Below, piece after piece: positions 20,078 through 36,107 of a stretch of DNA of 64,000 nucleotides. The first letter of the stretch is position 1, and each line of letters begins with the position of its first letter. A model generated the notes under the pieces. That model worked only from the letters and a program-made list of their open reading frames with translations. It ran no database searches and was not told where the DNA came from. Source of the stretch: Hydrogenothermaceae bacterium (GTDB lineage: Bacteria; Aquificota; Aquificia; Aquificales; Hydrogenothermaceae); NCBI GenBank assembly GCA_026418535.1, contig JAOABC010000002.1:62001-126000 (forward strand), read 5' to 3'. Both the position numbers and the translations under genes were made by a program.

Positions 20078-21013
20078 ATGAGAAACTTTCTAGTGGAGCC
20101 ACCTAATATAGATTTCTTGAGGATAAGGAAGGTTGGCTATCTACTTTCATTAGGTTTACTTACCTTAAGTTTGATTCTATTCTTTACAAAGGGGTTTAAC
20201 CTAGGTTTAGATTTTACCGGTGGAACTTCTATACATATTAAGATGAGTAGTCCATCTTCAACTTCAAGCATCCGGAGTGCCCTTAAAGAGGTAAAACTGG
20301 ATGATGCGTTGATACAGGAGATAGGAACCGGAAAAACAGAGTTTGAGATAAGGGTATCCATCAAGAAAGGTGGCTCATCCCAAGTAGTCCAAAAGGTAAA
20401 GTCAGCCTTAGACAGATCTTTTCACGGTAATTATGAGATAAGGAAAGTTGAGTTTATAGATGCTTTAGTTGGGGATGAGATGAGGAAAGCCAGTATATAC
20501 TCTCTTCTTTTTGTTATGGTAGGTATCCTACTGTATGTAGGGTACAGATATGAGCCTACATTTGCCTTGGCTGCTATCATTCCCATATTCCACGATGCAA
20601 TCATAACTCTTGGTGTTTTCTCTTTCCTTGGAAGGGAGATAGACCTTACAGTTGTTGCTGCTATCTTAACAGTCTTAGGGTACTCTCTGAACGATACGAT
20701 CATAGTCTTTGACAGAATAAGAGAGAACATAAAGATAAGGGGCAGGAAGAGCCTGGAGTCTATAATTAATAGAAGTATAAATGAAAACCTAGGAAGAACT
20801 GTGATAACATCCGGAACATCTCTCTTTGCTGTAATATCCATATTCCTGTTTGGAGGAGATTCTTTAAATAGTTTTGCCCTTGCTCTACTCATAGGTATAG
20901 TGTTCGGAACATACTCATCTATATACGTAGCAGCTCCTCTCATCCTTGAGATGGAAAGACTAATAAAATCAAGAGTGATAAAGGAAAAACCAATAAACCC
21001 AGAGGTCAAGTGA
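20078..21013 (+). CDS. secF: Protein translocase subunit SecF
   Basis: SecF is the partner of SecD in the SecDF export motor. It has the GFNLGLDFTGGTSIHIK motif after TM1, a short P4 domain, and the C-terminal TM bundle with ILTVLGYSLNDTIIVFDRIRENI. The 311 residues are the expected size. TAGGAG lies upstream of the ATG. It overlaps the hisC start at 21013, so the downstream amino acid gene may be translationally coupled. Confidence 0.96.
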   Translation: MRNFLVEPPNIDFLRIRKVGYLLSLGLLTLSLILFFTKGFNLGLDFTGGTSIHIKMSSPSSTSSIRSALKEVKLDDALIQEIGTGKTEFEIRVSIKKGGSSQVVQKVKSALDRSFHGNYEIRKVEFIDALVGDEMRKASIYSLLFVMVGILLYVGYRYEPTFALAAIIPIFHDAIITLGVFSFLGREIDLTVVAAILTVLGYSLNDTIIVFDRIRENIKIRGRKSLESIINRSINENLGRTVITSGTSLFAVISIFLFGGDSLNSFALALLIGIVFGTYSSIYVAAPLILEMERLIKSRVIKEKPINPEVK

Positions 21014-22083
21014 TGGATTTCTTAATTAGATTAAGAGAACTAAAGGCTTATAAAACGGAGACCACTCCTTGTAAAGTTAGGCTATCTTCTAACGAGAGTC
21101 CCTTTGACCTATCTGAGGAATTAAAAGATAAGATCTTAGAAGAGATAAGAAAGATAAACTTTCAGAAGTATCCAGATCCAACAGCAAGAGCCCTAAAAGA
21201 AGTCTTAGCAGATTTTATAGAAGAGATGGATGGTGTGGTTGTCTCTCCGGAAAACCTAGTGTTGGGTAATGGCTCAGATGAACTTATACATATGCTTATA
21301 TCTGTGGTTGGAGATCTAGATAAGCCTGTTCTTTATCCAGTTCCCACGTTTCCTATGTATCAGGTATCCTCAGATATCCTTAGAAGACCAAAAGTGGAGT
21401 TTTTCCTAAATGAGGACTTTGATATATATATCTCAGATTTAGATATGGCCCTGTATGAAAACCCTCAGATCGCTTTCTTTGCATCTCCAAACAATCCAAC
21501 TGGAAATAGTTTAAATCCGGAGGCTATAAGGTATACTATAGATAGGGGGATATTTACCGTAATAGATGAAGCTTATATACACTTTTCAGATAGAAAAAGC
21601 TTTCTAAAATTAGCGTTAGAGATGGATAATGTGGTAGTTCTACGGACTATGTCCAAGATAGGACTTGCCTCCATCAGACTTGGTTATCTTGTGGCAAAGA
21701 AGGAGATAGCTCAGCTTCTAGATAAAGCACGACTGCCATTTAACATAACTTACCCAACTCAAGCTGTAGCAAAAGTGGTTCTTACAGAAGGAATTGAAGA
21801 GATAAAAAAACAGATAGAGTTTGTGAAGTTTGAAAGAGAGAGAGTCTTAACTACTCTGAAAGAGATAGACAAAGTGAAAATCTATCCATCAGACGCTAAC
21901 TTTTACCTTATAAAGGTTCCAGATGCAGACTTTTTCCATAAAAACCTAATCCGGATGGATGTCTTAGTAAGGAACATGTCTCACTTACCAAAGATGGAAA
22001 ACTGCTTGAGAGTATCCGTTGGAAAAAGGGAAGATAACAATGCCTTTATACAGGCTTTAAAGGATGTTGTTTCTGAGTTATGA
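21013..22083 (+). CDS. hisC: Histidinol-phosphate aminotransferase
   Basis: HisC is a PLP-dependent aminotransferase of histidine synthesis (histidinol-phosphate with 2-oxoglutarate). It has NGSDELIHMLI, the PTFPMYQV segment, FFASPNNPTGN, FTVIDEAYIHF with the PLP-contacting Asp, and the Schiff-base lysine in VVLRTMSKIGLASIRLGYLV. The ATG at 21013 (AGAGGT 6 nt upstream) overlaps the secF stop; a GTG 3 nt earlier is less well placed. No other his genes are nearby. It converges with bcsQ and overlaps it by 6 bp. Confidence 0.94.
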   Translation: MDFLIRLRELKAYKTETTPCKVRLSSNESPFDLSEELKDKILEEIRKINFQKYPDPTARALKEVLADFIEEMDGVVVSPENLVLGNGSDELIHMLISVVGDLDKPVLYPVPTFPMYQVSSDILRRPKVEFFLNEDFDIYISDLDMALYENPQIAFFASPNNPTGNSLNPEAIRYTIDRGIFTVIDEAYIHFSDRKSFLKLALEMDNVVVLRTMSKIGLASIRLGYLVAKKEIAQLLDKARLPFNITYPTQAVAKVVLTEGIEEIKKQIEFVKFERERVLTTLKEIDKVKIYPSDANFYLIKVPDADFFHKNLIRMDVLVRNMSHLPKMENCLRVSVGKREDNNAFIQALKDVVSEL

Positions 22084-22818
22084 CCTCCGGATACCCTTTA
22101 CAAGGAGATATTTATCTAATGTTTTCTTCACATAGATACTAAATGGACAAGTAGGGTTGTAGAGGACTGTAGGTTTACAGTGCCCCTGAGAGTCAGACAC
22201 AGTTATGTCTTGTGGTATTAGACCTAAATTTTTATCACCGCACAAGTAAGATATCATTTTCGAGAAATCTTCACTGACTTTGGTAGGTTCCGTTCTATTT
22301 ACCAATATGTGAGTTTTGTTTGTAAGGTTTTTACTCTCTATAAACTGCTGAAATATAATAAAGGAAGAGAAAGTTGCCGGGTCTGGGTTTAGAACAACCA
22401 AAAAGTCATCAGCTATCTCTAACAATGTCTCTATGTGTTTAGAAATCCTGGGAGGAGTATCATATACGACAAAGTCATATGTGCTTATATCTCTTACAAA
22501 TTCTCTGATCTTTTCTAGGTTAAATTTGTCTTCATACAGCTCTGGAGCTTTTAGGGAGAGCAGTCCAGTAGGGATAAAATCGAGGTCTCCGCTGTCTAAC
22601 AAAACTTTTTGTACAACTCTATCAAAACTCGCTTCACTTATGAGGACTTCTGAAAAACCTTCTTTGAAGTCCTTGCAGAGAAAGTGAGCTATACTGTTTT
22701 GAGGGTCAGTGTCTACTAAGAGAGCTTTGAAATTTTTTGATAGCTCATAAGCGAAGTTTAATGCTATCGTAGATTTACCTACACCACCTTTAAAAGAACC
22801 TATAACTATATTTATCAT
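22078..22818 (-). CDS. bcsQ: BcsQ-like ParA/MinD ATPase of the cellulose operon
   Basis: The 246-residue P-loop ATPase has the deviant Walker A (SFKGGVGKST, about residues 8-17), ALLVDTDPQNS and DFVVYDTPPRIS, all typical of ParA/MinD proteins. It is the last gene of the cellulose cluster and overlaps bcsC by 4 nt, which identifies it as BcsQ (YhjQ), a factor that positions or assembles the secretion complex at the cell pole. Without that context it would be called a generic ParA. It is not a chromosome-partition gene here: no parB or parS-like site is seen. Confidence 0.85.
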   Translation of the reverse strand: MINIVIGSFKGGVGKSTIALNFAYELSKNFKALLVDTDPQNSIAHFLCKDFKEGFSEVLISEASFDRVVQKVLLDSGDLDFIPTGLLSLKAPELYEDKFNLEKIREFVRDISTYDFVVYDTPPRISKHIETLLEIADDFLVVLNPDPATFSSFIIFQQFIESKNLTNKTHILVNRTEPTKVSEDFSKMISYLCGDKNLGLIPQDITVSDSQGHCKPTVLYNPTCPFSIYVKKTLDKYLLVKGIRRS

Positions 22819-25800
22819 TTTTTATAGATCTCCTTCTCTTGGTTTATTAGGTCTTTTTCTGTAATGTTAAATCTGTTTCCAAAGAAGTACTGTAGACTTA
22901 GGGAGCCAAAGAGCTCTGAGTATTTCGATGTTTTTCTGTACTCTCCAGAGATATTGAGAAAAATATTCCGATGAAGTCTGTATATACTTCCTATATACCC
23001 ATCGAAAGATGTATCTAGACTATTTTCCCCTTTATTGTCCACATTCATAAGTCCCAAGAAAGCCTTATAGTGCATCCCTGCTACAGGGTTGAAAAACTTA
23101 AATCCTTCAAACATTGGAGCAGCGATCATAAGTCTTTTCGGAGAGAAGTATCCTCCGCATCCGTAATAGTAACAGTCTTGGTCTTTCGAAAAACTATCGT
23201 ACATAAAAAATAGACTAATGTAGTCTTTATCTCCGATTAAACTATTTAGTGACAGCTTAGGCATCAGTATGAGGTTGTAGTGGTTGTTCTCTTGTACGTT
23301 TTTACCTTTTATTTTTCCTACTTTAAGCTCTGCGTATACAGGGAATTTTTCATCTCCTTTCTCTCCGGAAAGTTTAACTCCCTCTTCTATAGCTCTCCCC
23401 CAACTGGTTTTTTCTGTATATGGGTCCAAAGTTCCAACATAGGATAGGAGAGAGTCTCGAACAGGTCTTCTGTATAAACCGATTCCTATCTTACTGTTTT
23501 CCATCAGAGCCTTTGCCTCTAAGTTGTAAATGAGAGAGTTAGATACACCGTTGTTCACAATAGGTGTAGAACCAATCAATCCTTCTAATACGGATTTATA
23601 TGTGTTTATCTTTATGCCTCCAAAGGGTTCTGCTCTCCTGTATCCGGATGGAACTGTTCTCATGATGTTCATATTTGAAGGTGAACCAAAATGTTCATAA
23701 TCTTTTAATATTCCGGAGTACAAGTTTGTTCCGTATACACCAGCATGTACACTAATATTTTCGTTTACAAAATGTCTTACCAATATATAAGGAGAAGTAT
23801 CTATTATTTTGCTTTTACCGTTTTCTCCGGATTTGTCTCTCAACTTAAGACCTATTTCAAGGTTGCTAAGATAGTTCTGCTTCCCTTCTTCTATCTTTTT
23901 CTTCAGTTCTTTTAAATTACTTTCTGAATCCGTTGACTCCTTTGACATGTATCTTTCTTTAGATGTAGTCTTATCTTTTTTTATATCTTCCTGTCTGTAG
24001 GGAACAAAGATCTCTAGAGGCTCTATCCCATCTTCCAAGATGTATGGTACTTCTCTCTGGATGTATAACATCTCTCTCTGAATGTTTTCTTGCTTAAGCT
24101 TCTTGTCTTCAGGGTAAGGAAGGGTAGTTTCTTTAGGAATTTCTCTTGTATTCTTTGCTAAAGACTCTATACTTTTAAGTATTCTTTCCCCATCAGTGTA
24201 AAACCCTATAGATTTGTATATAGTAGCTACACCTTCCAAGACATTTGCATCAGTAGAATTCTCTAGTTTCTTTAGTAGCATAAGGGTATTCTCTTTATCT
24301 TTTAAATTACTGTATACGTAAGCAAGTCCCAATATAGCCGTCTGATTGTTTTTATCTAACACAAGAACATTTTCAAAGGCTTTTTTACTACATTCCAAAT
24401 CTCTCAGGTTATAACAGCTCCATCCTAGGAGTTCAAACAGAGTAGGCTCTACTTTAAAAATACTCAAACCCTCTAAAGCCACATTCTTTGCTCTGTCATA
24501 ATCTTTACTTTTTAGGTAAAAGGAAGATAACTTAATGTATAGAACTTTGTAAAGTTCTCTAAGTTCTCTCTTCTGCTCCTCTGTTAATCTGTTTTTATCT
24601 ATACTTTTCAGTATTAGTTTAACTTGCTCGAAAAACTCAAAATCTATCAATCCATATAAGTATGATACTTTTATACCAAAATCCTCCGGTTCTAATTCAT
24701 AAGCCTTAGTTAAGTATTTGAAGTATAGCTCTTTTACTCCTCTTTCCTTGTATATGTTCGACAAAATTAAATAGACCGTAGGGTTAAGTGAGTTCAGTTT
24801 CAAAGCTTCTTCTGCGTATGTAAGAGCATTTGAAATCTCTTTTTTCTCTATAAACTCTTTAGCTTTCTTTATCAGGTATAGTTCTCTTATTTTTTTCTCA
24901 TCCTCATCTTTAACTCCCAGAGCTTTTAGCCTATCTATCATCCGGATAGAATCTTCGTAACTACCTAGCTTTACATACACAGCTTTTAGACCTTTGATAG
25001 CATCTTTATTCTCTTTATCAATTAGAAGGACATTTTTGTAGAAATTCTCTGACTTATGTAAATTACCCTTTAGCAGGTATAGATAGCCCAAGTTCAGTAA
25101 AACATAAATGTTGGATGGTTGTTTTAAGTATAAATTATGTAAAATAGATTCTGCTTCATCCAGTTCTCCGGATTCTATCCTCTGTTTTGCTTTGTCTATA
25201 TCAGCATAGAGATTTTTCTCTTCCAATAATCTTTTTTCTTCCTCCGTTAAGAACTGTTGGAACTTAGAAAGTTCCTGGATTTTTTCAGACGCTATAAGAT
25301 AGTCTATGTATGCTCTTATAACCTTTTTATTTTGAGGATAATTACTGTACAATCTTCCTATAATCTCTTGTGCTTTATTTAGTTCTTTACCTTTGAGGTA
25401 AGCATAGAAAATTCCCAATCGAGACTCTAAATTTTCCTTAAAAAAGAGACTTCTTTCAAAATGTTTGATGCTTTCCTTCACATTATTTCTTTCAAGGAGA
25501 TTGTATCCTTTCTCCATGTAGTAAACCCAGCAAGCCTCTGATTCCAATTTTTTTTCTTTTCTTTTTATGTTCTTTATAGAGGAAAATATCTCACAAGCTT
25601 CTTTAAAGTTCTCTCTTTTTAAGTTGACTAGACCTATAATAAATTTAGCATCTGTAGAGTACTTAGTGTTTATAAGCTCGTTTACTATACTTGAGGCTTC
25701 CGAAAGTTTTTCAGAGTGAAGACTGTTCGACTTTTTCTTATCTTCAGTTTTAGTCTTCACTTTCTCCTCTTTTTTTACCTCGGTAGTAGTTCTGAGAGTA

Positions 25801-26063
25801 GATGGTTTAGAGATCTTTGCGTCTAACCCGTTAGACTTTAGGAAGTCTTTAAGTTGTAGAATGTAGTCTAAATTTTTATTCTCTAAACACTTTAAAGTGT
25901 TGGTATCAATTCTCTTACATTGTCTAAATCCGAGGTTTTTAAGTTTTTCTTCCTCGGATTTTGTCTTTATGTTCACCAACAGCTCATAAGACTCTTCTCC
26001 GGCTGAAGTCTGGACTAAAGCCCAGCACAGAGAAAGACCTATGGTAAACCTTTTAAAATCCAT
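22815..26063 (-). CDS. bcsC: Cellulose secretion protein BcsC (TPR scaffold and outer membrane barrel)
   Basis: BcsC spans the periplasm with TPR repeats and exports the glucan through a C-terminal 16-strand barrel. The 1082-residue protein has a signal peptide (residues 1-22), a short domain at about 25-85 that looks like a degenerate SPOR fold (YELLVNIKTKSEEEKLKNLGF), then many TPR units from about 100 to 620. A charged linker follows, then a BCSC_C-like barrel from about 740 to the end with strands such as NISVHAGVYGTNLYSGI and SLSLQYFFGNRFNI. It starts inside the end of bcsZ and overlaps bcsQ by 4 nt. The barrel is divergent in sequence; the order of domains and the operon make the call. 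Confidence 0.85.
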   Translation of the reverse strand: MDFKRFTIGLSLCWALVQTSAGEESYELLVNIKTKSEEEKLKNLGFRQCKRIDTNTLKCLENKNLDYILQLKDFLKSNGLDAKISKPSTLRTTTEVKKEEKVKTKTEDKKKSNSLHSEKLSEASSIVNELINTKYSTDAKFIIGLVNLKRENFKEACEIFSSIKNIKRKEKKLESEACWVYYMEKGYNLLERNNVKESIKHFERSLFFKENLESRLGIFYAYLKGKELNKAQEIIGRLYSNYPQNKKVIRAYIDYLIASEKIQELSKFQQFLTEEEKRLLEEKNLYADIDKAKQRIESGELDEAESILHNLYLKQPSNIYVLLNLGYLYLLKGNLHKSENFYKNVLLIDKENKDAIKGLKAVYVKLGSYEDSIRMIDRLKALGVKDEDEKKIRELYLIKKAKEFIEKKEISNALTYAEEALKLNSLNPTVYLILSNIYKERGVKELYFKYLTKAYELEPEDFGIKVSYLYGLIDFEFFEQVKLILKSIDKNRLTEEQKRELRELYKVLYIKLSSFYLKSKDYDRAKNVALEGLSIFKVEPTLFELLGWSCYNLRDLECSKKAFENVLVLDKNNQTAILGLAYVYSNLKDKENTLMLLKKLENSTDANVLEGVATIYKSIGFYTDGERILKSIESLAKNTREIPKETTLPYPEDKKLKQENIQREMLYIQREVPYILEDGIEPLEIFVPYRQEDIKKDKTTSKERYMSKESTDSESNLKELKKKIEEGKQNYLSNLEIGLKLRDKSGENGKSKIIDTSPYILVRHFVNENISVHAGVYGTNLYSGILKDYEHFGSPSNMNIMRTVPSGYRRAEPFGGIKINTYKSVLEGLIGSTPIVNNGVSNSLIYNLEAKALMENSKIGIGLYRRPVRDSLLSYVGTLDPYTEKTSWGRAIEEGVKLSGEKGDEKFPVYAELKVGKIKGKNVQENNHYNLILMPKLSLNSLIGDKDYISLFFMYDSFSKDQDCYYYGCGGYFSPKRLMIAAPMFEGFKFFNPVAGMHYKAFLGLMNVDNKGENSLDTSFDGYIGSIYRLHRNIFLNISGEYRKTSKYSELFGSLSLQYFFGNRFNITEKDLINQEKEIYKK

Positions 26064-27045
26064 TCTTTAAACCCTCTAAGATGAGCATAAGACTATCACA
26101 GAAATAGTTATTACTGTCTACTTCTAAAAGTTTTCTGTACTTCTCTAAATACATTTCGTCCTTATAGAGAGTGTAAAAAGAGAAGTATACGCAGAAAGGA
26201 GCTTCTCTCTTTTCTTGTTCTTTAGTATCGTATCTGTACGAAAACGGAATATAACCATTTTGCTTAAAGAAAAGGTCTACTTCTTTAAAAACATCCTTAA
26301 AAATCTCTAAAACATCCGAGTCTTTGAAGCTGTATATAATTACCCTATAAAGGTCTATGTCTGCAAAACTATTACTTATAAATGCTTTGTCTAAAAGAGA
26401 GAACTTTACAGTTGTTGATAGACCTTTTTTACTGTATATAGTTATCATACTTTTATATACATCTTCCCAATCCCTATCTACTTTAGACATCTCTTTTATA
26501 ATGAAGTTTATGTAATACGAAGGATACAGAGTTATTTCGTATCTTTCGTTGGAAAAACCGTACACAGCAGGTAAAAAGAGGGCAAAAGTATCCTTACTTT
26601 TGACTATTTTAACTATAAGCCTCTTAAGGGAGCTGTTTACACTCTCAAACTCTTTAAGGTAGTACTTATCTCCCCATTTCCAATAAGCTCTCAAAAGAGC
26701 GTATGCTATCAGTAGATCTCCATCAGATGCATTGTTCTTGTCTACAACAACATTGTTCCAATGCCAGGAGAAAAGATTATCCTCCCTTTGGAGATTTTTT
26801 TTACTCCAGTTGTATAAGCTGTCAAATACACTCTTGTCATTATTTATAAGAGCTATTATTAGCCCGTATCCTTGTGCTTCAGATGTAACTCTGTTATTAT
26901 TATAAGGATCTACTATATAGCTCTTCTCCTTCAGATACTTAGCTTTGTATAGCTCCCAAGATAATTTTATTTTTCCTTCCCCCATAGCAAAGATTTCACT
27001 TTTACTTAAAAGTACTAGCACAAGTAGAGTCACGATTAATCTCAT
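26053..27045 (-). CDS. bcsZ: GH8 endo-1,4-beta-glucanase of the cellulose operon
   Basis: BcsZ is a periplasmic family 8 cellulase needed for normal cellulose export. The 330-residue protein has a signal peptide (RLIVTLLVLVLLSKSEIFA). Both catalytic acids are present: the general acid Glu in TSEAQGYGL at about residue 55, and the Asp in NNASDGDLLIAYALL at about 106. LFSWHW upstream of the second motif is also typical. It overlaps bcsB by 4 nt and bcsC by 11 nt. Confidence 0.92.
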   Translation of the reverse strand: MRLIVTLLVLVLLSKSEIFAMGEGKIKLSWELYKAKYLKEKSYIVDPYNNNRVTSEAQGYGLIIALINNDKSVFDSLYNWSKKNLQREDNLFSWHWNNVVVDKNNASDGDLLIAYALLRAYWKWGDKYYLKEFESVNSSLKRLIVKIVKSKDTFALFLPAVYGFSNERYEITLYPSYYINFIIKEMSKVDRDWEDVYKSMITIYSKKGLSTTVKFSLLDKAFISNSFADIDLYRVIIYSFKDSDVLEIFKDVFKEVDLFFKQNGYIPFSYRYDTKEQEKREAPFCVYFSFYTLYKDEMYLEKYRKLLEVDSNNYFCDSLMLILEGLKNGF

Positions 27046-29192
27046 AGCTCACCCTCTAGTCTTCTCTTTTCTCTGGTGTCAAGTATTTTTTTCAACATTA
27101 AAGACAAGATTACTACTATGGCTACAGCAGAAAGTGCAAATAACGTTGGGTCAAAACCTATTGTGTAGATTATCTTCTGGATAAGGGGAAGATTACCTAT
27201 GTAGTATTTCTCATTTATATTGTCGGTGTAATACTGATTCTCATAGAAGTCCCAGATAGCTACATCCCCTTTTATCTGTCCTGCGAACTTTGGTTCAAAG
27301 AGATTTTTTGTAGAGTTGTAAAGCTGGTCTTCATTTTTGGAATATAGGATAAGGATAGTCCTTTGGCTGTCGAAAGGAGATTGTCCCATGCTGAAGAATA
27401 CCTGATCTGTTATCCTATTTAAGTAGTTTATGTTTGCTCGGACAGATACATTCTGTTGTCTGTTTAATAACCTATCTAAGAGGTTTCCGTTGAATATATG
27501 TTTCAGAAGGGGTATATCTATTTTGATATCTTCATCACTGATCTTTAGATAGAATCTATCTTGAACAGATTTTGGTATACTATCTCCTATGATAATTATA
27601 TTCTTGTCTTTTTTTTCTTCTAGATTACTGGATAATTCTATGTTATAAGGGGGAAAGAATATTCTTGTACCCATGTAAGCTGAGAGTGTTAGAGCAGAGG
27701 AGATAAATTTCTCATTCTCGTTTGTTATTACTATAGCTGTGTGTGCCATTCCTCCTTCTAACGAGAATGGAAATGCACTGTCTATAAAATACTCTAGGTA
27801 AGGCATCTCAAACCAAAATGGCATACTAGGAACATAGATGAAAGACTTATCTGTAAATAGAGTTCCTCTAAGGGCTTCTATGTTTGGAGATATACAATAT
27901 CCACCACCCGGGGCCATCATTGCATACTCTATCTTTAGTCTGTTTAAACCACCTTGTAGTAAATATGCTGGAATCTTTATATCTTCTTCTTTCAAAACTA
28001 CTCCGTACTTTTTCTCTATTTTGAGGGAGGTTACGTACCTGTCATTTAGATATATATTTATTACAGAGTCCTCTCTTGTCCCGGCCCCGTAGTTGTAAGC
28101 AAAGTGAAAGAGTATCTTCTCGTTTTTCTTTATGAATAGTCCCTGTGGAATTCTAAACTCTACTATAGCTGGGGGAGGATATATGCCACTAAACTTAAAA
28201 TCTTCATAACCAAGTTGTTTCAGATAGATTCTCTTTCCCAGTGGTATACTTATAAGGGTTGAATACTCTTTTATATCTGGCTTATGAAACTCTCTCAAGT
28301 AGTAGTCCATCCCTGTGTACATCTCATTCTTCACCGACATGAATGAGAAGAGAGATCTTCTTATACTTTCCGGAGAGTTTCCAGTTATATATACTACTCC
28401 CTTAGTTATATTCTTAGGATTTGGCAGTATGCCTATATCAGCTATGTATTTGGCATCTATTCCCAGGAGCTTTCTGACGAAGTCTTTAGACCCTATAACA
28501 ATAATATCCTTGTTAACCGGGAGTTCTTGAGAGAAATATTCTATATTTATCTTTCTGTACTTAATGTAGTTACCTATATATCCAGCTAACTTTGTAGCTA
28601 AGGATAAATAGTAATCACTCTTATCTTCTGTTATTATCCCAAGTTTAACTGGATTATACAATTTTGGGTCTAGAATGTAGTCTCTTATCAGAATACTATC
28701 TGGAAGTATCGGTTTTTCTTCGTAGTTTATTAGAATGTAGCTACTATCCAGATCTATCTTTGACCAGAGCTCTGGACTTGCTTCAAACTCACAACAGTTT
28801 ATACAGTAGTGATGGACAGCTTTTATTGTTATATCGTTGTATGGTTCCAAGTTATCTAATGGCAAGTTTAAATCAGCAGAAACTATGTCTATGAGAGGGT
28901 CATACGGTTTTTGGTATACTAATTTTCTGTTAAAAAAAACTGATATGCTACTTCTCTCTTTTACAAGAGCAACAGATTTTTCTACTTCCAGATGTAAGCG
29001 TAGACCCTTTACTATATACCTTGAAGGAATAGGGACCTTTATATTGTACTCTCCTTGTATGCTTCTTAAAGTTGGGTCCTTGAAAGTCAGTTCTTTGAGA
29101 GGGATCTTTATCTCTTCTCCATAGCTTGATGATAAGAAGACAAAAAAGAGGTTAACTAATACGGAATATACAGAAATTCCTTTTCTTTTCAT
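27042..29192 (-). CDS. bcsB: Cellulose synthase regulatory/periplasmic subunit BcsB
   Basis: BcsB is the periplasmic partner of BcsA that guides the nascent glucan. It has a signal peptide (MKRKGISVYSVLVNLFFVFLSS), carbohydrate-binding-like and flavodoxin-like repeats, and a C-terminal membrane anchor (FALSAVAIVVILSLMLKKIL) that packs on BcsA. The HHYCINCCEFEASPELWSKID segment near residue 130 is the family hallmark around the conserved Cys and Trp. An upstream in-frame ATG at 29216 exists, but GGAG is 7 nt before the ATG at 29192, giving 716 residues. It overlaps the BcsD-like gene by 41 nt. Confidence 0.93.
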   Translation of the reverse strand: MKRKGISVYSVLVNLFFVFLSSSYGEEIKIPLKELTFKDPTLRSIQGEYNIKVPIPSRYIVKGLRLHLEVEKSVALVKERSSISVFFNRKLVYQKPYDPLIDIVSADLNLPLDNLEPYNDITIKAVHHYCINCCEFEASPELWSKIDLDSSYILINYEEKPILPDSILIRDYILDPKLYNPVKLGIITEDKSDYYLSLATKLAGYIGNYIKYRKINIEYFSQELPVNKDIIVIGSKDFVRKLLGIDAKYIADIGILPNPKNITKGVVYITGNSPESIRRSLFSFMSVKNEMYTGMDYYLREFHKPDIKEYSTLISIPLGKRIYLKQLGYEDFKFSGIYPPPAIVEFRIPQGLFIKKNEKILFHFAYNYGAGTREDSVINIYLNDRYVTSLKIEKKYGVVLKEEDIKIPAYLLQGGLNRLKIEYAMMAPGGGYCISPNIEALRGTLFTDKSFIYVPSMPFWFEMPYLEYFIDSAFPFSLEGGMAHTAIVITNENEKFISSALTLSAYMGTRIFFPPYNIELSSNLEEKKDKNIIIIGDSIPKSVQDRFYLKISDEDIKIDIPLLKHIFNGNLLDRLLNRQQNVSVRANINYLNRITDQVFFSMGQSPFDSQRTILILYSKNEDQLYNSTKNLFEPKFAGQIKGDVAIWDFYENQYYTDNINEKYYIGNLPLIQKIIYTIGFDPTLFALSAVAIVVILSLMLKKILDTREKRRLEGEL

Positions 29193-29679
29193 TTTTACAC
29201 TCCATCTCAGACACATTTAAGTTTTCCTCAAATACATTTGACAAGATTGAAGAGTATAAGACAGATAGAAAATTACACACTTTTTGATTGGATATGTTAG
29301 ACAGATATCTAACGAATGGAGAATCATAATGGTATATGAATAGCTCTCTACTTTTTATGTTTATTTCTATCTGGCTCGTTCCAAGGTTATTTAGAGCTAA
29401 TAATTGGTTTACTGTATCCCAAGCTGTCTCTATGTCATCATTTGAGATGTTCTTTATATTTTTTATCAGTATGTAGTTGTGTTCTATATAGTTTTTTGCG
29501 ACAGTTTCCATAAACTGGTTGTATTCATGATACTCAATCAGTTTATACAGTGTATAGGTTATAAAGTATTCTAAACTGGCACTTTTGTATGTAGTTAGAC
29601 TTTTTGGTACTATTATTTTGGAGTTGTCTTTACTCTCTAGATTTAGTTTCTCTTCACCTTTTTCTTTAAAAATTTTCAT
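29152..29679 (-). CDS. BcsD-like cellulose synthase accessory protein
   Basis: The 175-residue protein lies between bcsA and bcsB. It has no signal peptide or membrane segment. A central block (DIETAWDTVNQLLALNNLGTS, then IYHYDSP) resembles the BcsD pattern of an amphipathic helix followed by 'LN..WG' and 'I.H...P', and the end (RNFCIFRIS) could match the BcsD C-terminal strand. BcsD forms periplasmic octamers that align glucan chains in Acetobacter. This match is by eye and weak. AGGAG is 8 nt before the ATG at 29679; a TTG at 29685 overlaps the bcsA stop. Base composition is noticeably AT-rich. Confidence 0.55.
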   Translation of the reverse strand: MKIFKEKGEEKLNLESKDNSKIIVPKSLTTYKSASLEYFITYTLYKLIEYHEYNQFMETVAKNYIEHNYILIKNIKNISNDDIETAWDTVNQLLALNNLGTSQIEINIKSRELFIYHYDSPFVRYLSNISNQKVCNFLSVLYSSILSNVFEENLNVSEMECKNEKKRNFCIFRIS

Positions 29680-29681
29680 GG

Positions 29682-31934
29682 TCAAAGCTCCTGCTGCTTC
29701 TTTTTGATGCTGTTAAACAGCATTTTAGCATAGTTGTACCCATTCCGTATCAAAAGTAAATAGTCTATAGATTTAATCTCTCTAAAGAATTCTTTTGAGG
29801 CTACTGTGTAAGATCTTGAAAAAGTCTTAATAAAGACCTTTAAAAGGAACAGGAATGTCCTTATTGGCCCTAATGTTATCTCCTCTCTGAAGATCTCCCA
29901 TCTTGAGCTGCTAGCATAAACTACTTTTATGAGTTTCTTTATACTTTCTACATCGTTAGTGTTTAGAAATTTTGCTCTAACGTTCTTGGCATTTGCATTT
30001 ACTACCTGTGCTTGAAGATAGAAGGCTATGTTGTTTATATCTTTTATTATGAACCTTGCGTAGGCATCTCTGACCTCTGAGAGATACTCTGTTATATCCT
30101 GGTCTATTTCAACCCATATACCTGTTAAAGATATATCTTTTATCCTTCCTGATATAACTCTCCTTGTACTATCTATATAAACAAAAGATTCGTCATGAGT
30201 GGGTATTCTAAAAGCGTTTCTTCTCTGAGGTTTCTCAAGAAGTATACTGATTCCAAGACCGAGTATTAGAAAGTTAAAGACCTGCCAGAAAAGAACCACT
30301 ATGATTACACCTCTCTCCTCCGGAAAATTTATCCATCTATAGAGGCTAAAGAAAAAGGAGATTACGATGATATGAAAGAGTATGTAGACAGGTTTATAGA
30401 AAGGTGTTAAGAACTCTTCCTCTAGATTCTCTCCTTTTGGGGTAACTTTGAATGTTGGTTTTCTCGGGCTTAGTATAACACTGATAATGGCAGGTAGTAT
30501 GAATAAAGACTGGATAGCTTCATAGATCTCTGAGAAAAAGTTCCAGCGAGTTTTTACATAGAGATAGTAAGATACTAAGATAGAGAAGATAAAATGTGGA
30601 ACAGCGTACGTAAGGGAGTCTTCCAGGGATGCATTATACATCCTCACTCCTAAAATTGGGTAGAGAACCGGAGCTATCAAGAACACAAACCTTGCAAACC
30701 CAAAAAACCAGAACACATTAGCATTTAAATAGGATAGCTTCTGATACCATCTCAACCCTTTCTTAAAGAGAGGGTTCTTAAGAAGGAATATCTGTATCAT
30801 TCCTTGTGCCCAACGGGTTCTCTGTACAACAAAGGCAGAAAACGTTTCTGGCTGCAACCCATATATCATTGGTCTGGCATAGTAGCCGCTGTCATATCCT
30901 CTAGAATGAAGTTCTAATGCAGTTTCTGCGTCCTCAGTTATAGTATTCCCCTGTATTCCTCCTACCTCCATTAAGTATTCTCTTCTCAGAATGGCTGCAG
31001 AACCACAGAAGAAGGAAGCACTCCAGAAATCTAATCCTTTTTGTATATGTTTGTAAAACATATCCGCTTCACTGGGAACTATCCTGAATATGCCGAGGTT
31101 CTTTTCCAATGGGTCTGGGTTGTAGAAAGAGTGGGGAGTTTGGACTAAGAACATCTTTGGATACTTTTTGAAAAAGCCAACGGTCCTCTTTAGGAAGTCT
31201 TCAGCTGGAACGTGGTCACAGTCTAGTATAAGTATAAGCTCTCCATCTGTCTTCTTTAAAGCTTCGTTTATATTTCCAGCTTTCGCATGCAGATTTTTCT
31301 CCCTGGTAAGGTAGTATAGGTTTTTACCAACACTCTCTACAAATTTTTTAAGTTCCATTGCCCTCTCGGTATTTTCTTTTCTTTTATCTGGGTCTGGGTC
31401 GTTTAACTTTTGAGCTGTTCCGCCATCATCCAGTATGTACACCTTAAACTTCTCCTGAGGATAATCCATACTTAGGGCAGCTAAAGCCGTTGCTTTCACT
31501 ATCTCTGGAGGTTCATTGTAAGTAGGTATAAACACATCTACCGTAGGATAATCCTCTCTCTTCTCTATTATTATAGATTTCCTTTCCAATAGTCTTAGGG
31601 ATACAAAACTTCCAAGGAGCAGAATCACTATAGAGTAAACTTCAGCAAGATATAAAGTTATAGACAGTAGAGCGTTTATGAAACCCTCATCTAAGTTTAA
31701 TGTGTTGAAAGTTCTCCAGTAGAAGTACCTTAGAGATATTATCATTCCAAAGAATATGATGATAAGTTTTATATACTCATTCTGCCTTTTTATTAAAAAT
31801 AGGGTTAAAATAAAAAAAGTTGCGAACAGAGTTAGCTGGGAGTTGTAGCTAGTTGGAGTGGTTATTATAATGGCAAGTAAGAGGAAGAGGATGGTTAGAG
31901 ACAGACTGGGTATTTGCTCTTTCTTTGATATCAT
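29682..31934 (-). CDS. bcsA: Cellulose synthase catalytic subunit BcsA
   Basis: BcsA polymerises UDP-glucose to beta-1,4-glucan and passes it through the inner membrane. The 750-residue protein has N-terminal TM helices, a GT2 domain with VFIPTYNEP, LDDGGT (about 170), LILDCDHVP (about 236), TEDAETALELHSRGY (about 336) and the product-binding VQRTRWAQGM (about 370), more TM helices, and a C-terminal PilZ domain. The PilZ domain keeps both c-di-GMP motifs, RNAFR (RxxxR) near 570 and DISLTG (DxSxxG), so activation by c-di-GMP is expected. No good Shine-Dalgarno precedes the ATG; it overlaps the stop of an upstream small frame (ATGA), so it may depend on translational coupling. Confidence 0.97.
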   Translation of the reverse strand: MISKKEQIPSLSLTILFLLLAIIITTPTSYNSQLTLFATFFILTLFLIKRQNEYIKLIIIFFGMIISLRYFYWRTFNTLNLDEGFINALLSITLYLAEVYSIVILLLGSFVSLRLLERKSIIIEKREDYPTVDVFIPTYNEPPEIVKATALAALSMDYPQEKFKVYILDDGGTAQKLNDPDPDKRKENTERAMELKKFVESVGKNLYYLTREKNLHAKAGNINEALKKTDGELILILDCDHVPAEDFLKRTVGFFKKYPKMFLVQTPHSFYNPDPLEKNLGIFRIVPSEADMFYKHIQKGLDFWSASFFCGSAAILRREYLMEVGGIQGNTITEDAETALELHSRGYDSGYYARPMIYGLQPETFSAFVVQRTRWAQGMIQIFLLKNPLFKKGLRWYQKLSYLNANVFWFFGFARFVFLIAPVLYPILGVRMYNASLEDSLTYAVPHFIFSILVSYYLYVKTRWNFFSEIYEAIQSLFILPAIISVILSPRKPTFKVTPKGENLEEEFLTPFYKPVYILFHIIVISFFFSLYRWINFPEERGVIIVVLFWQVFNFLILGLGISILLEKPQRRNAFRIPTHDESFVYIDSTRRVISGRIKDISLTGIWVEIDQDITEYLSEVRDAYARFIIKDINNIAFYLQAQVVNANAKNVRAKFLNTNDVESIKKLIKVVYASSSRWEIFREEITLGPIRTFLFLLKVFIKTFSRSYTVASKEFFREIKSIDYLLLIRNGYNYAKMLFNSIKKKQQEL

Positions 31935-32032
31935 CTTCTAGTAAAGAGTAACTCTTTCAATTTGGTTACACTCTTTGAACTTTCTAAACCTGTCCTGTAA
32001 GTTTCGGATTTTAGTTCAACAGGGGCCCTCAT
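31931..32032 (-). CDS. Second part of a split small ORF, coupled to bcsA
   Basis: This frame encodes 33 residues from an ATG (MRAPVELKSETYRTGLESSK..., ending FTRR) and is open without a stop well upstream of that ATG, through the A8 tract. Its TGA overlaps the bcsA ATG. The ATG has no real Shine-Dalgarno (GAAAGTGA only). The upstream extension (KKKWEVLSYIESEM) continues the coiled-coil heptads of the preceding small ORF, so the two frames probably encode one 85-residue protein. No known family recognised. Confidence 0.5.
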   Translation of the reverse strand: MRAPVELKSETYRTGLESSKSVTKLKELLFTRR

Positions 32033-32049
32033 TTCACTTTCTATATAAC

Positions 32050-32187
32050 TTAGAACTTCCCACTTTTTTTTAGCTCTTCTATTTCTCTCTCCAGGAAGAA
32101 ATTATTCTGTTTTAAATCCGATTCTTCTTTTTCTTCAGGTTCTAAATCTTTATTACCAAGCAAAGGCTTTAAAATCTGGACTTTCAT
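32050..32187 (-). CDS. Small leader ORF of the cellulose operon (45 residues, ends after A8 tract)
   Basis: A 45-residue acidic, coiled-coil-like peptide starts with MKVQILKPLLGN and ends ELKKSGKF. AGGAG lies 8 nt before the ATG, the best ribosome-binding site at the head of the cellulose operon. It goes out of frame after the A8 tract at 32064-32071. One extra A, or a -1 shift on A-AAA-AAA, joins it to the frame ending at 31931. The start is 24 nt after the MTA/SAH deaminase stop, so it may be read from that transcript. Not recognised as BcsR or another named Bcs protein. Confidence 0.6.
   Translation of the reverse strand: MKVQILKPLLGNKDLEPEEKEESDLKQNNFFLEREIEELKKSGKF
32064..32071 (-). other. 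A8 homopolymer: slippery site or phase-variable tract
   Basis: Eight A residues on the coding strand are phased CTA-AAA-AAA-AGT, so A-AAA-AAA forms a -1 slippery heptamer. A ninth A in the DNA or mRNA has the same effect on the reading frame. A sequencing error cannot be excluded. Confidence 0.6.
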
Positions 32188-32211: not shown

Positions 32212-33519
32212 TCATAGCATTTCTTTGTAGGTTTTATACCAATTCTTTGCTATACTTATCGACTTTTCTTTGTTTACACTTAATACCACTTTATTCTTCA
32301 TTAAGACCTTTCCGGACACTATGACAGTATCCACGTCTAATCCTTTTCCGGAGTAAACTATCTGTGTATAAGGGTCAAAAAGAGGTTGTAGATGGGGCTG
32401 GTTTACATCTACTAGTATTATATCCGCAAACTTTCCTTTTTCTATAGTCCCTATCTTATCGTGGAGACGGATAGCTTTAGCACCTTCCCTTGTGGCCATA
32501 GCTATTGCTTGTTTCGCGTTTAAAACTGTGGGGTTTAGGTTTACTCCTTTATGAAGCTTTGCTGCTGTTGATATCTCTCCTATCACGTCAAGGTCGTCGT
32601 TTGAGGCCGTTCCATCCGTTCCTATTCCAACTGTTATACCTCTATTAAGCATCTTAGGAACTGGAGCTACTCCGGATGCAAGCTTTAGATTACTCTCCGG
32701 GCAGTGGGCTACCTTCACCCCGTACTCAGATAGTATATCTATCTCTTCCTCTGTAGGATGGACCATGTGAGCAGCTAAAACCCTATCGTTTAAAACTCCT
32801 ATCTCCTTTAAGTATTTTACTGGTGTGTTTCCGTACCTGGATTTTATCTCTTCCACTTCGTTCTGTGTTTCTGATACATGGATATGAAAGAGTGTATCGT
32901 AATCTATAGCTACTCTCATAGCCATCTCTAATGTCTTTGGGGAGCAAGTGTAAGGTGCATGAGGCCCTACACAAGGATAGATGTATGGATTATCTCTATA
33001 CTCTCTTATAAAATCTTTTGTCTTTTCTATTCCCTCCTCCGGACTCTTTGTTCCTGGGGTTGGGAAGTCAAGTATGCCAGTACACAAGACAGCCCTCATT
33101 CCACTCTCTAAAACCGAGTCAGCAACCGCATTTTCATAAAAGTACATATCTACAAATGTGGTAACACCGTTCCTTACCATCTCATAACAGGCTATGTAAC
33201 TGCCGTCTCTAACAAAGTCATAGCTTACAAATTTACCTTCAACTGGCCAGATATACTTTTCAAGCCAAACTTTCAGAGGGTTGTCGCTTCCGTACCCTCT
33301 CAATAATGTCATAGCTGCATGGGTGTGTGTGTTTATAAGTCCTGGTAAGACTATCTTGCCGCTAGCGTCTATAAATTCCTTAGCCTCTGTATTTTCCCTG
33401 AGCTCTTCTCCAACCTCTTGAATAACTCCGTCTTTTATGGCGATATAGCCATTCCTATACTCAGTATAGTTATCGTCTACCGTAAGTATCCATCCACCTT
33501 TTATAATCAGGTCAAACAA
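32212..33519 (-). CDS. mtaD: 5-methylthioadenosine/S-adenosylhomocysteine deaminase
   Basis: This is an amidohydrolase of the TRZ/ATZ-MtaD family that deaminates MTA or SAH. The 435-residue protein has the metal ligands of the family: HTHAAMTLLRG (about 65-75), the His in LFHIHVSETQNE, AAHMVHPTEEE with its His, and the Asp in GIGTDGTASNDDLD. It begins at a TTG with GGAGG 9 nt upstream. The deaminase returns purine and methionine skeletons; metK is also in the window but far away. The cellulose operon follows in the same direction. Confidence 0.9.
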   Translation of the reverse strand: MFDLIIKGGWILTVDDNYTEYRNGYIAIKDGVIQEVGEELRENTEAKEFIDASGKIVLPGLINTHTHAAMTLLRGYGSDNPLKVWLEKYIWPVEGKFVSYDFVRDGSYIACYEMVRNGVTTFVDMYFYENAVADSVLESGMRAVLCTGILDFPTPGTKSPEEGIEKTKDFIREYRDNPYIYPCVGPHAPYTCSPKTLEMAMRVAIDYDTLFHIHVSETQNEVEEIKSRYGNTPVKYLKEIGVLNDRVLAAHMVHPTEEEIDILSEYGVKVAHCPESNLKLASGVAPVPKMLNRGITVGIGTDGTASNDDLDVIGEISTAAKLHKGVNLNPTVLNAKQAIAMATREGAKAIRLHDKIGTIEKGKFADIILVDVNQPHLQPLFDPYTQIVYSGKGLDVDTVIVSGKVLMKNKVVLSVNKEKSISIAKNWYKTYKEML

Positions 33520-33617: not shown

Positions 33618-36107
33618 ATGAAAGCTGTTGTTATGGCGGGAGGCTTCGGAACCAGGATACAGCCTCTTACTAACTCAATACCAAAACCTATGCTTCCGAT
33701 TATCAACGCACCTATGATGGAGCATATAATCAGGAAACTAAAATCTGCAAATATAACAGATATAATAGTTCTTCTTTACTTTAAACCTGATGTTATTCAG
33801 AACTACTTTAAAGATGGTAAGGACTTCGGAGTGAATATAACGTACATACTTCCTGACGATGACTACGGTACGGCAGGAGCAGTAAAAAAAGCCCAGAAGC
33901 ATATAGATGAGAGATTTATAGTAGTCAGCGGAGACCTCGTAACTGACTTTGACTTTAATGAGATCATAGGTTTTCATAACGCTATGTCCTCTAAGCTTAC
34001 CATTACCCTTACCTCTGTGGAGGATCCTCTCCAGTTTGGTGTGGTTATCACAGATAAGGAAGGTAAGATACTCAGGTTTTTGGAAAAGCCAGGATGGGGT
34101 GAGGTTTTCAGTGATACGATAAACACAGGTATATACGTTATAGAACCGGAGATTTTAGATTACATCCCAGCAAATATACCATTTGACTTCAGTAAGGAGC
34201 TATTCCCAAAGCTTATGAAGGAAGGGATAACCTTATACGGTTACAACGCTAAAGGTTACTGGAGAGATGTGGGTAATCCGGAGAGTTACAGAGAGGTAAA
34301 CAAGGAGATATTGGAGGGGAAGATAAAACTTGGATTCGAAGGAGATAAGGTTGAATTTCCAAAAGGTGTTGTCTACACAAAGAGTCAGATACCCTCGGAC
34401 ATAACTGCGGAGGGGGTGGTGGTAGTAGACAAGAATGTGGAGATACAGCCTAGTGTGAACCTGAAAAACTGTGTAATAGGGGAAGGTTGTAAGATAGAGA
34501 GTGGAACAAGGATATCAAACTCAGTTCTCTGGTGGGATTGCCAGATAGGCAGAGACTGTCTGTTTGAGAACAGTGTTATATGCAACAGGGTGTATATAAA
34601 AGATAAAGTAAGAGCGGAAAAAGGGGTGATCATAGCCGAAGGAACTGAGATAGAGAGTAACGTTATAATAGAGAAGGATGTGGTGATTTATCCAAACAAA
34701 CATATCGAGGAAAACGCTATAGTCAGTAGCAACCTTATATGGGGAGATAAGTTCAAGTCCTCCATCTTTGAAGGAGGAAAAGTGGTTGGAAGGACGAATA
34801 TAGAGTTATCTAATGAGATGGCAGCAAAGCTTGCTGCAGCCTTTAGTAGTATAATCCCAAAAGGTAAAAAAGTTCTGATGTCAAGGGACTATCACAGGGC
34901 ATCAAGGATGTTAAAGAGGTCTTTTTTGGGTGGACTACTGTCTACCGGCTTAGATGTAGTAGACCTGAAGCTGGTCCCACTTCCGATGATGAGATACTTG
35001 CTATCTAAAGGTGATTATGCTGCCGGTGTTCACTTCAGACAGTCTCCAGAGAATCCATCAAATACAGAGATACTCTTTTTTGATAATGACGGACTACCGA
35101 TAGATACTAACACTGAGAAGAGTATTGAGAGGCTATTTTTCAGAGAAAACTTCCGGAGAGTTAACTATAACGAAATAGGAGAGATAAAGGAGGACACAGA
35201 ACTAACAAAACTCTACAAAGAGAGGTTTCTCTCCCTTATAGACACTCAAGCAATAAAGTCTGCCAAGTTAAGTGTGATAGTAGACCTACTGAACGGCTCA
35301 ACAGCTACAGTTTACCCAGATATAATCAACACCATCGGTATAGATAACATAATACTGGGTTCTTACTTTGATGAAAAGAAGCTCTCTCAGGTTCACCAGA
35401 CTCATAAAAAGTCTGCTGTGGAGATAGCAGGAATAATACAGGTTCTGAAAAAGGATATGGGGTTTGTTATATATCCAAATGGTCAGAGGATTATCCTGGT
35501 GTCAGATAAAGGAGATATTCTAAGTAATTTACACACCCTACTGGTGATACTGTTCCTTATGAACAAGACTACAAACAGACAGAAGAAAGTATACCTGCCC
35601 GTGTATGTCCCGGATTATATGGATGACCTTTTTGAGAACCTTATTATAGAGAGGGGAAAAACCATAGGCTTAAAATCAAATTTTCTGAAAGATTGCTACT
35701 TCTATGGAAATTTAGATGGAAACTACTGCTTTACTGATATGTCCCTGAGTTTTGATGGTATGTTTAGTTCTGTAAAAATCTTAGAGATGTTGTCAAAATC
35801 ATCTTTAAAAGTGTCGGAGATCTTGAGCTTCATTCCAGACTTTTACTTTAACCACAGTGTGATCGCCTGTCCTGTTAACCTAAAGGGAAGAATAATGAGG
35901 AAGGCAACAGAAGAGGCTATAGGAAAGAAGGCCTCTTTTGTAGATGGTGTTAAGATATTTGAGGATGATAGATCTTGGGTGCTTGTTATCCCTGACCAGT
36001 ATGGAGACAGTGTTCACTTGTACGTATCCTCAGATAGAGTAGAAAAGGGTCAGGAGATACTCTCAGATTACAACGATAAGATAAAACAGTGGATAGAAAA
36101 TGGCTAA
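33618..36107 (+). CDS. Sugar-1-phosphate nucleotidyltransferase fused to a degenerate phosphomannomutase-like domain
   Basis: Residues 1-230 form a nucleotidyltransferase (MAGGFGTRIQPLTNSIPKPMLPI, DLVTDFD), probably for mannose- or glucose-1-phosphate. Hexapeptide left-handed helix repeats follow at about 250-370. From about 400 to 829 comes a phosphomannomutase/phosphoglucomutase-like region. In it the phosphoserine loop (normally TASHNP) reads RQSPENPSN and the metal loop (DGDxDR) reads YPNGQRIILVSD, so mutase activity is doubtful. Similar fusions are annotated as mannose-1-phosphate guanylyltransferases in several phyla. It heads the alpha-glucan operon, overlaps the first GH57 gene by 8 nt, and has GGGGGT upstream of the ATG. 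Confidence 0.85.
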   Translation: MKAVVMAGGFGTRIQPLTNSIPKPMLPIINAPMMEHIIRKLKSANITDIIVLLYFKPDVIQNYFKDGKDFGVNITYILPDDDYGTAGAVKKAQKHIDERFIVVSGDLVTDFDFNEIIGFHNAMSSKLTITLTSVEDPLQFGVVITDKEGKILRFLEKPGWGEVFSDTINTGIYVIEPEILDYIPANIPFDFSKELFPKLMKEGITLYGYNAKGYWRDVGNPESYREVNKEILEGKIKLGFEGDKVEFPKGVVYTKSQIPSDITAEGVVVVDKNVEIQPSVNLKNCVIGEGCKIESGTRISNSVLWWDCQIGRDCLFENSVICNRVYIKDKVRAEKGVIIAEGTEIESNVIIEKDVVIYPNKHIEENAIVSSNLIWGDKFKSSIFEGGKVVGRTNIELSNEMAAKLAAAFSSIIPKGKKVLMSRDYHRASRMLKRSFLGGLLSTGLDVVDLKLVPLPMMRYLLSKGDYAAGVHFRQSPENPSNTEILFFDNDGLPIDTNTEKSIERLFFRENFRRVNYNEIGEIKEDTELTKLYKERFLSLIDTQAIKSAKLSVIVDLLNGSTATVYPDIINTIGIDNIILGSYFDEKKLSQVHQTHKKSAVEIAGIIQVLKKDMGFVIYPNGQRIILVSDKGDILSNLHTLLVILFLMNKTTNRQKKVYLPVYVPDYMDDLFENLIIERGKTIGLKSNFLKDCYFYGNLDGNYCFTDMSLSFDGMFSSVKILEMLSKSSLKVSEILSFIPDFYFNHSVIACPVNLKGRIMRKATEEAIGKKASFVDGVKIFEDDRSWVLVIPDQYGDSVHLYVSSDRVEKGQEILSDYNDKIKQWIENG

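Follow-up and report, generated by a model that had tools for sequence, protein, structure and literature searches.

In Proteobacteria, BcsD together with BcsH or BcsP and with BcsQ forms a scaffold (PMC11470070). The BcsD protein AxCesD structurally resembles TRAPPC3, V4R and H-NOX, and in PoxR-type V4R and Thor-TRAPPC3 zinc is bound via cysteines (PMC10933270). Within the Aquificales, the available passages of PMC10086821 state a cellulose synthase for Aquifex aeolicus and cellulose for Hydrogenothermus. Our literature searches found no paper treating BcsD together with V4R and no discussion of BcsD ancestry.

Here we describe a cellulose synthase operon from a thermophilic member of the Hydrogenothermaceae (Aquificota; genome of 1.47 Mb in 29 contigs), contained in the 64,000-nucleotide stretch of DNA that we analysed (the window). 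Like the Caballeronia bcsD-P-Q-A cluster (locus L124; PMC11470070), it combines a PilZ-bearing BcsA, a BcsD-fold protein (hereafter D) and a probable BcsQ ATPase, a synthase with a putative cytosolic scaffold, and a small gene that we call X may take the part of BcsP. It differs from such proteobacterial bcsD-P-Q-A operons in its order, X-A-D-B-Z-C-Q, and in that D keeps V4R metal-site residues; unlike BcsP, X is short and not proline-rich. The Aquificales of PMC10086821 share with it the phylum and BcsA or cellulose production, while operon anatomy, BcsD type and transfer are absent from the available part of that account. The operon is of a known kind, and its additions are a V4R-type BcsD and movement of the operon within a family. 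We consider it likely that these elements hold jointly, namely a functional-looking, c-di-GMP-controlled cellulose operon with a BcsD-Q accessory set, an apparently ancestral V4R-type BcsD with a probable scaffold role, and block movement within the Hydrogenothermaceae.

All six bcs genes lie on the minus strand in the order bcsA-D-B-Z-C-Q, running from 31934 to 22078, with every frame open and the ends of neighbouring genes overlapping or abutting (Table 1). A preliminary description of this DNA had proposed that a probable Aquificota holds a complete cellulose operon with c-di-GMP motifs, tightly packed with short overlaps. Indeed, family models agree, bcsA, bcsB, bcsZ and bcsC are adjacent and intact, and the coordinates confirm the packing. 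The block had been drawn at 22078-32187; the six genes do lie there, but 32187 is the ATG of the small upstream ORF and bcsA starts at 31934. Beside mtaD, at 33618-38142, the window also holds a gene for a fused sugar nucleotidyltransferase/phosphomutase and, after it, a glucan-branching-like gene of GH57 type, an arrangement also found in the sister species (G078).

Table 1. Genes of the cellulose operon and its borders, in window coordinates
Feature	Coordinates	Strand	Evidence
bcsA, cellulose synthase catalytic subunit with PilZ	29682..31934	-	TIGR03030, PilZ, motifs
bcsD, V4R type	29152..29685	-	V4R/Cellsynth_D matches, hhalign and shuffles, AF2 model and Foldseek
bcsB, periplasmic cellulose synthase subunit	27042..29216	-	PF03170 280 bits; NF008329 910 bits
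bcsZ, GH8 endoglucanase	26053..27045	-	PF01270 114 bits; PDB GH8 matches; family alignment
bcsC, TPR and outer-membrane export barrel	22815..26063	-	BCSC_C 97 bits, TPR_19 60 bits
bcsQ, MinD/ParA-type ATPase	22078..22818	-	CBP_BcsQ 44.7 bits, AAA_31 69 bits, KGGVGKST; same position in relatives
gene X, small, 5' of bcsA	31931..32187	-	sequence; intact counterparts in relatives; frame broken
hisC, left border of insertion site	21010..22083	+	TIGR01141 above cut-off; 6 bp overlap with bcsQ end
amidohydrolase (mtaD-like), right border of insertion site	32212..33519	-	82% identity to G078 copy adjoining hisC

The order A-D-B-Z-C-Q is present as first described but is a family-wide arrangement and no peculiarity of one genome. 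It recurs in full in G097, G101, G104 and G066, and two contig fragments (G068 and G100) read A-D-B(-Z), consistent as far as present. A small gene is usually found 5' of bcsA in bcs-positive relatives. In the Aquificaceae G001 and G004 the order is D-B-Z-C-Q, the bcsA of G001 being convergent next door; G001 also has its bcsC divided between two ORFs of 670 and 330 aa that overlap (L034 12504-14516 and 14504-15496), with bcsA downstream on the opposite strand. BcsA occurs in 7 of the 41 family genomes and in four of the ten genera, and a BcsA scan of genome contigs returned three relatives only, all Aquificota. Many Aquificota without a full BcsB (L012, L013, L014, L017, L021 and others) carry partial BcsB (PF03170) ORFs of 550-710 or ~330 aa, some of them two-module, possibly the BcsB-like part of another polysaccharide system.

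BcsA scores 885.5 bits with TIGR03030 (UDP-forming cellulose synthase; equivalog cut-off 699.1), far over its scores with the PgaC, MdoH and NodC models, and its best alignment, over residues 14-606, is with the BcsA of R. sphaeroides. These results give no support to a curdlan or other GT2 synthase, an identity that the preliminary description had named as a counter-reading. The GT2 motifs DDG, DCDH, TED and QRTRW (pattern Q(Q/R)xRW) are all kept, as is FFCGS, and the PilZ domain (26.1 bits) has the intact c-di-GMP motifs RNAFR (572; RxxxR) and DISLTG (600; (D/N)xSxxG) claimed for it earlier. In BcsZ, the glutamate of TSE(A/S)QGYG (here TSEAQGYG) and the aspartate of D-x-x-R are invariant across eight family members. 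BcsQ, with KGGVGKST as its Walker A motif, lies above the Pfam cut-off for CBP_BcsQ and, at 80 bits, below the equivalog cut-off of 158 for NCBIfam TIGR03371. For c-di-GMP supply the genome has eight GGDEF domains above 85 bits, six of them without an in-frame stop; in-frame stops interrupt GGDEF domains at G000:C24:43974-44435, G000:C11:190439-190672 and G000:C11:120037-120471, which may be cyclases in decay or reflect errors of assembly. Judged by these motifs and by what is established for the protein families, BcsA would polymerise UDP-glucose upon c-di-GMP binding to PilZ, BcsB would guide the chain across the periplasm, BcsC would export it and BcsZ would trim it, so that the predicted product is cellulose.

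Gene X has an ATG at 32187 and its ORF stops after 45 codons, a one-base shift at an A8 run (32071-32064) having interrupted the frame; the alternative frame runs on to an ATGA overlap with bcsA. Since the downstream frame keeps this overlap, a sequencing error, slippage and real or recent decay are all possible. Intact X proteins of 63-105 aa are encoded 5' of bcsA in five relatives (L036, L037, L038, L039 and L041), and most share a W-containing helix motif and a hydrophobic-basic C-terminal tail. Searches with X of PDB and NCBIfam gave no family match, and four intact X proteins matched neither the BcsP nor the BcsR models of NCBIfam, with Caballeronia BcsP as control scoring 86.8 bits. An assignment to BcsP through a C-terminal L-x2-LF likeness to the Caballeronia protein (SLNVLFERLR) was rejected as too short to count. 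Because X is frame-broken in the assembly and matches no BcsP/BcsR model, we only propose it as a candidate scaffold or adaptor partner.

The D protein, for which the ATG at 29679 is a likelier start than position 29685, is related to two families. The window protein scores 20.8 bits (E 4.5e-4) with Cellsynth_D/BcsD (PF03500) and 17.3 bits with V4R (PF02830), below the respective Pfam gathering cut-offs of 23 and 31. In the D family of ten, V4R was matched in nine members (best E 8.6e-8) and Cellsynth_D weakly in six (best E 2.9e-4). Profile comparison by hhalign, using small profiles of 10, 8 and 6 sequences, linked D to free-standing Aquificota V4R proteins (probability 96.6%, E 5.5e-10) and to six proteobacterial BcsD proteins (93.6%, E 2e-7), whereas canonical BcsD compared directly with the V4R profile gave 0.3% (E 0.2). 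Column shuffles reached the observed score in none of 100 cases for D-V4R, none of 100 for D-BcsD and 2 of 100 for BcsD-V4R. As D matches both families and the canonical profiles miss each other, D bridges them at the sequence level. The C-terminal residues 131-175 match V4R (97%) and hardly BcsD (1%). Sequence searches of PDB, by phmmer with D alone and by hmmsearch with the D profile, returned no relevant chain, so the relation is visible only by fold and profile-profile comparison.

With canonical BcsD/AxCesD (PDB 3a8e, 7zzq, 8pkd and 8pog) D shares the predicted fold and a core region, LN-x2-L...G...I-x-H-x2-P; in the alignment seen, canonical BcsD differs by having no C/E/C/C set. With V4R proteins (MopR, PoxR, MJ1460 and the free-standing Aquificota V4R) it shares the fold and a C-terminal C-x22-E-x2-C-x7/8-C-x-F, and it differs from them in its place in a bcs operon and its BcsD-like middle region. 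Residues C135, E158, C161 and C170 (numbered from ATG 29679) are invariant in all ten D proteins, and their spacing of 23/3/9 is close to the 23/3/8 of the MopR counterparts C155, E178, C181 and C189, which we take to be zinc-binding residues. By this pattern D is predicted to bind zinc. A search of this genome for further V4R domains gave none above threshold; elsewhere in the Aquificota free-standing V4R proteins are common, and in the Aquificaceae L113, L114, L115, L117 and L120 such a protein (~160 aa) is followed by a YjbQ/UPF0047-like gene (~132 aa) as a conserved pair.

An AlphaFold2 model of D (pLDDT 79.8, pTM 0.78) was compared with known structures by Foldseek. BcsD filaments were the top matches (probability 1.00 to 7zzq and 3a8e), BcsD filaments or octamers and V4R sensors alternated at probability 1.00, and no viral structure matched at E <0.001. 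TM-scores of 0.4-0.6 with rmsd of 5-9 A, for BcsD and V4R alike, are moderate and typical of remote relations. The early label "BcsD-like" is thus justified by predicted fold and core region, but it missed the V4R type, the most unusual feature of the protein. No signal peptide is discernible by eye and the N-terminus is lysine-rich; the former agrees with a location in the cytosol, where the BcsHD belt also lies (PMC11470070). D is apparently a cytosolic BcsD of ancestral type, with the V4R fold and zinc-site residues kept. By analogy with BcsH/BcsP, BcsD and BcsQ in Proteobacteria, D, BcsQ and X would most likely form a cytosolic scaffold that arrays the synthases.

D might instead be no orthologue of BcsD but a separate, recruited V4R regulator that senses a small molecule or lipid and modulates the synthase, the BcsD likeness being a matter of general fold. 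Of the two family matches, that to V4R is stronger and more consistent (nine of ten members; MsvR E 5.5e-8), the metal-site residues are retained, V4R/TRAPP relatives bind hydrophobic ligands (PMC10933270), and the frequency of free-standing V4R proteins in the phylum also fits. We nevertheless regard such recruitment as unlikely, given that residues 81-130 in the middle of D match BcsD (92%, E 8e-7) and not V4R (1%, E 0.04), that BcsD filaments are its best structural matches, and that its gene keeps a constant position, between bcsA and bcsB or directly 5' of bcsB. With D read as a BcsD, its sensor-domain features suggest what BcsD evolved from. That BcsD, the scaffold protein underlying crystalline cellulose ribbons, descends from a zinc-binding V4R sensor, with Aquificota retaining an intermediate that still has the metal site and may have a pocket for a ligand, is a tentative proposal to which we give slightly less than an even chance. 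As to the product, the broken frame of X could be taken to mean an inactive synthase, or the enzyme might make a different beta-glucan; with BcsA over the cellulose synthase equivalog cut-off, a GH8 BcsZ that keeps its catalytic residues and every other frame open, either seems very improbable, and cellulose is the product we would expect.

The history of the operon was approached through trees and neighbourhoods. In the concatenated BcsA+BcsB tree this operon nests within Sulfurihydrogenibium, grouping with G097 and G100, with G101 outside and G104 beside G066/G068, and separate A, B and C trees agree; in a core tree of two genes only, SecD and MtaD, the Sulfurihydrogenibium genomes (G097, G100 and G101) form one clade beside this genus. 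In AU tests, for which the clades were picked after both trees had been seen, the Bcs data rejected the core arrangement (p 4e-4 and 2e-6) and the core data rejected the Bcs arrangement (p 3e-8 and 3e-5). Given this two-way rejection, movement of the operon as a block among the Hydrogenothermaceae is the best reading. The competing account is vertical descent with repeated loss, the tree conflict arising from rate differences or from transfer into G101. It can point to a BcsA divergence like that of core genes (to G097, 78% against 77% for SecD) and to the mtaD of G097, ~4.5 kb from bcsQ. It is doubtful, though, in view of the mutual rejection of the trees, of flanking genes that change from one to the next of the four relatives examined, and of the empty site in the sister species, where the operon is absent and hisC adjoins mtaD to within a few bases, flush and without remnants. 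The patchy occurrence of BcsA among the family genomes and the tree conflict likewise speak against a block uniformly present and vertically inherited, which the preliminary description had raised against its own suggestion of transfer. With block movement as the preferred reading, a Sulfurihydrogenibium-like lineage was the probable donor of the copy that sits flush between hisC and mtaD; that the operon moved into this genome is concluded from the empty site and the lower G+C of the donors. As to an integration signature, the window has no tRNA and no convincing border repeat.

If D is the intermediate proposed above, a small molecule could modulate assembly of the synthase array. The resemblance of AxCesD to TRAPP, V4R and H-NOX, known from structure only (PMC10933270), becomes a homology chain supported by sequence, with D as a tangible intermediate in how BcsD arose and as a heat-stable scaffold protein that should purify easily. 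The flush movement of a whole operon also offers a clean comparison of species with and without it for the role of cellulose in hot-spring and vent biofilms.

Base composition was scored against a 260-kb part of the same contig. The AT-richness noted earlier for the block is real but modest: its G+C is 35.0%, the 2.8th percentile of 10-kb windows, and the five genes scored for GC3 (A, B, Z, C and Q) show ordinary values (z from -0.7 to +0.5). We rejected AT-richness as proof of transfer, because the AT-richer bcs genes in the operons of AT-rich relatives include D, Z and C as well. The suggested transfer is upheld by the empty site and the trees, but as movement within the family, with composition alone being weak. 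The scarcity of TCCGGA between 25.2 and 30.3 kb is also as described, with one site counted, and ~2% of 5.1-kb windows have one site or fewer.
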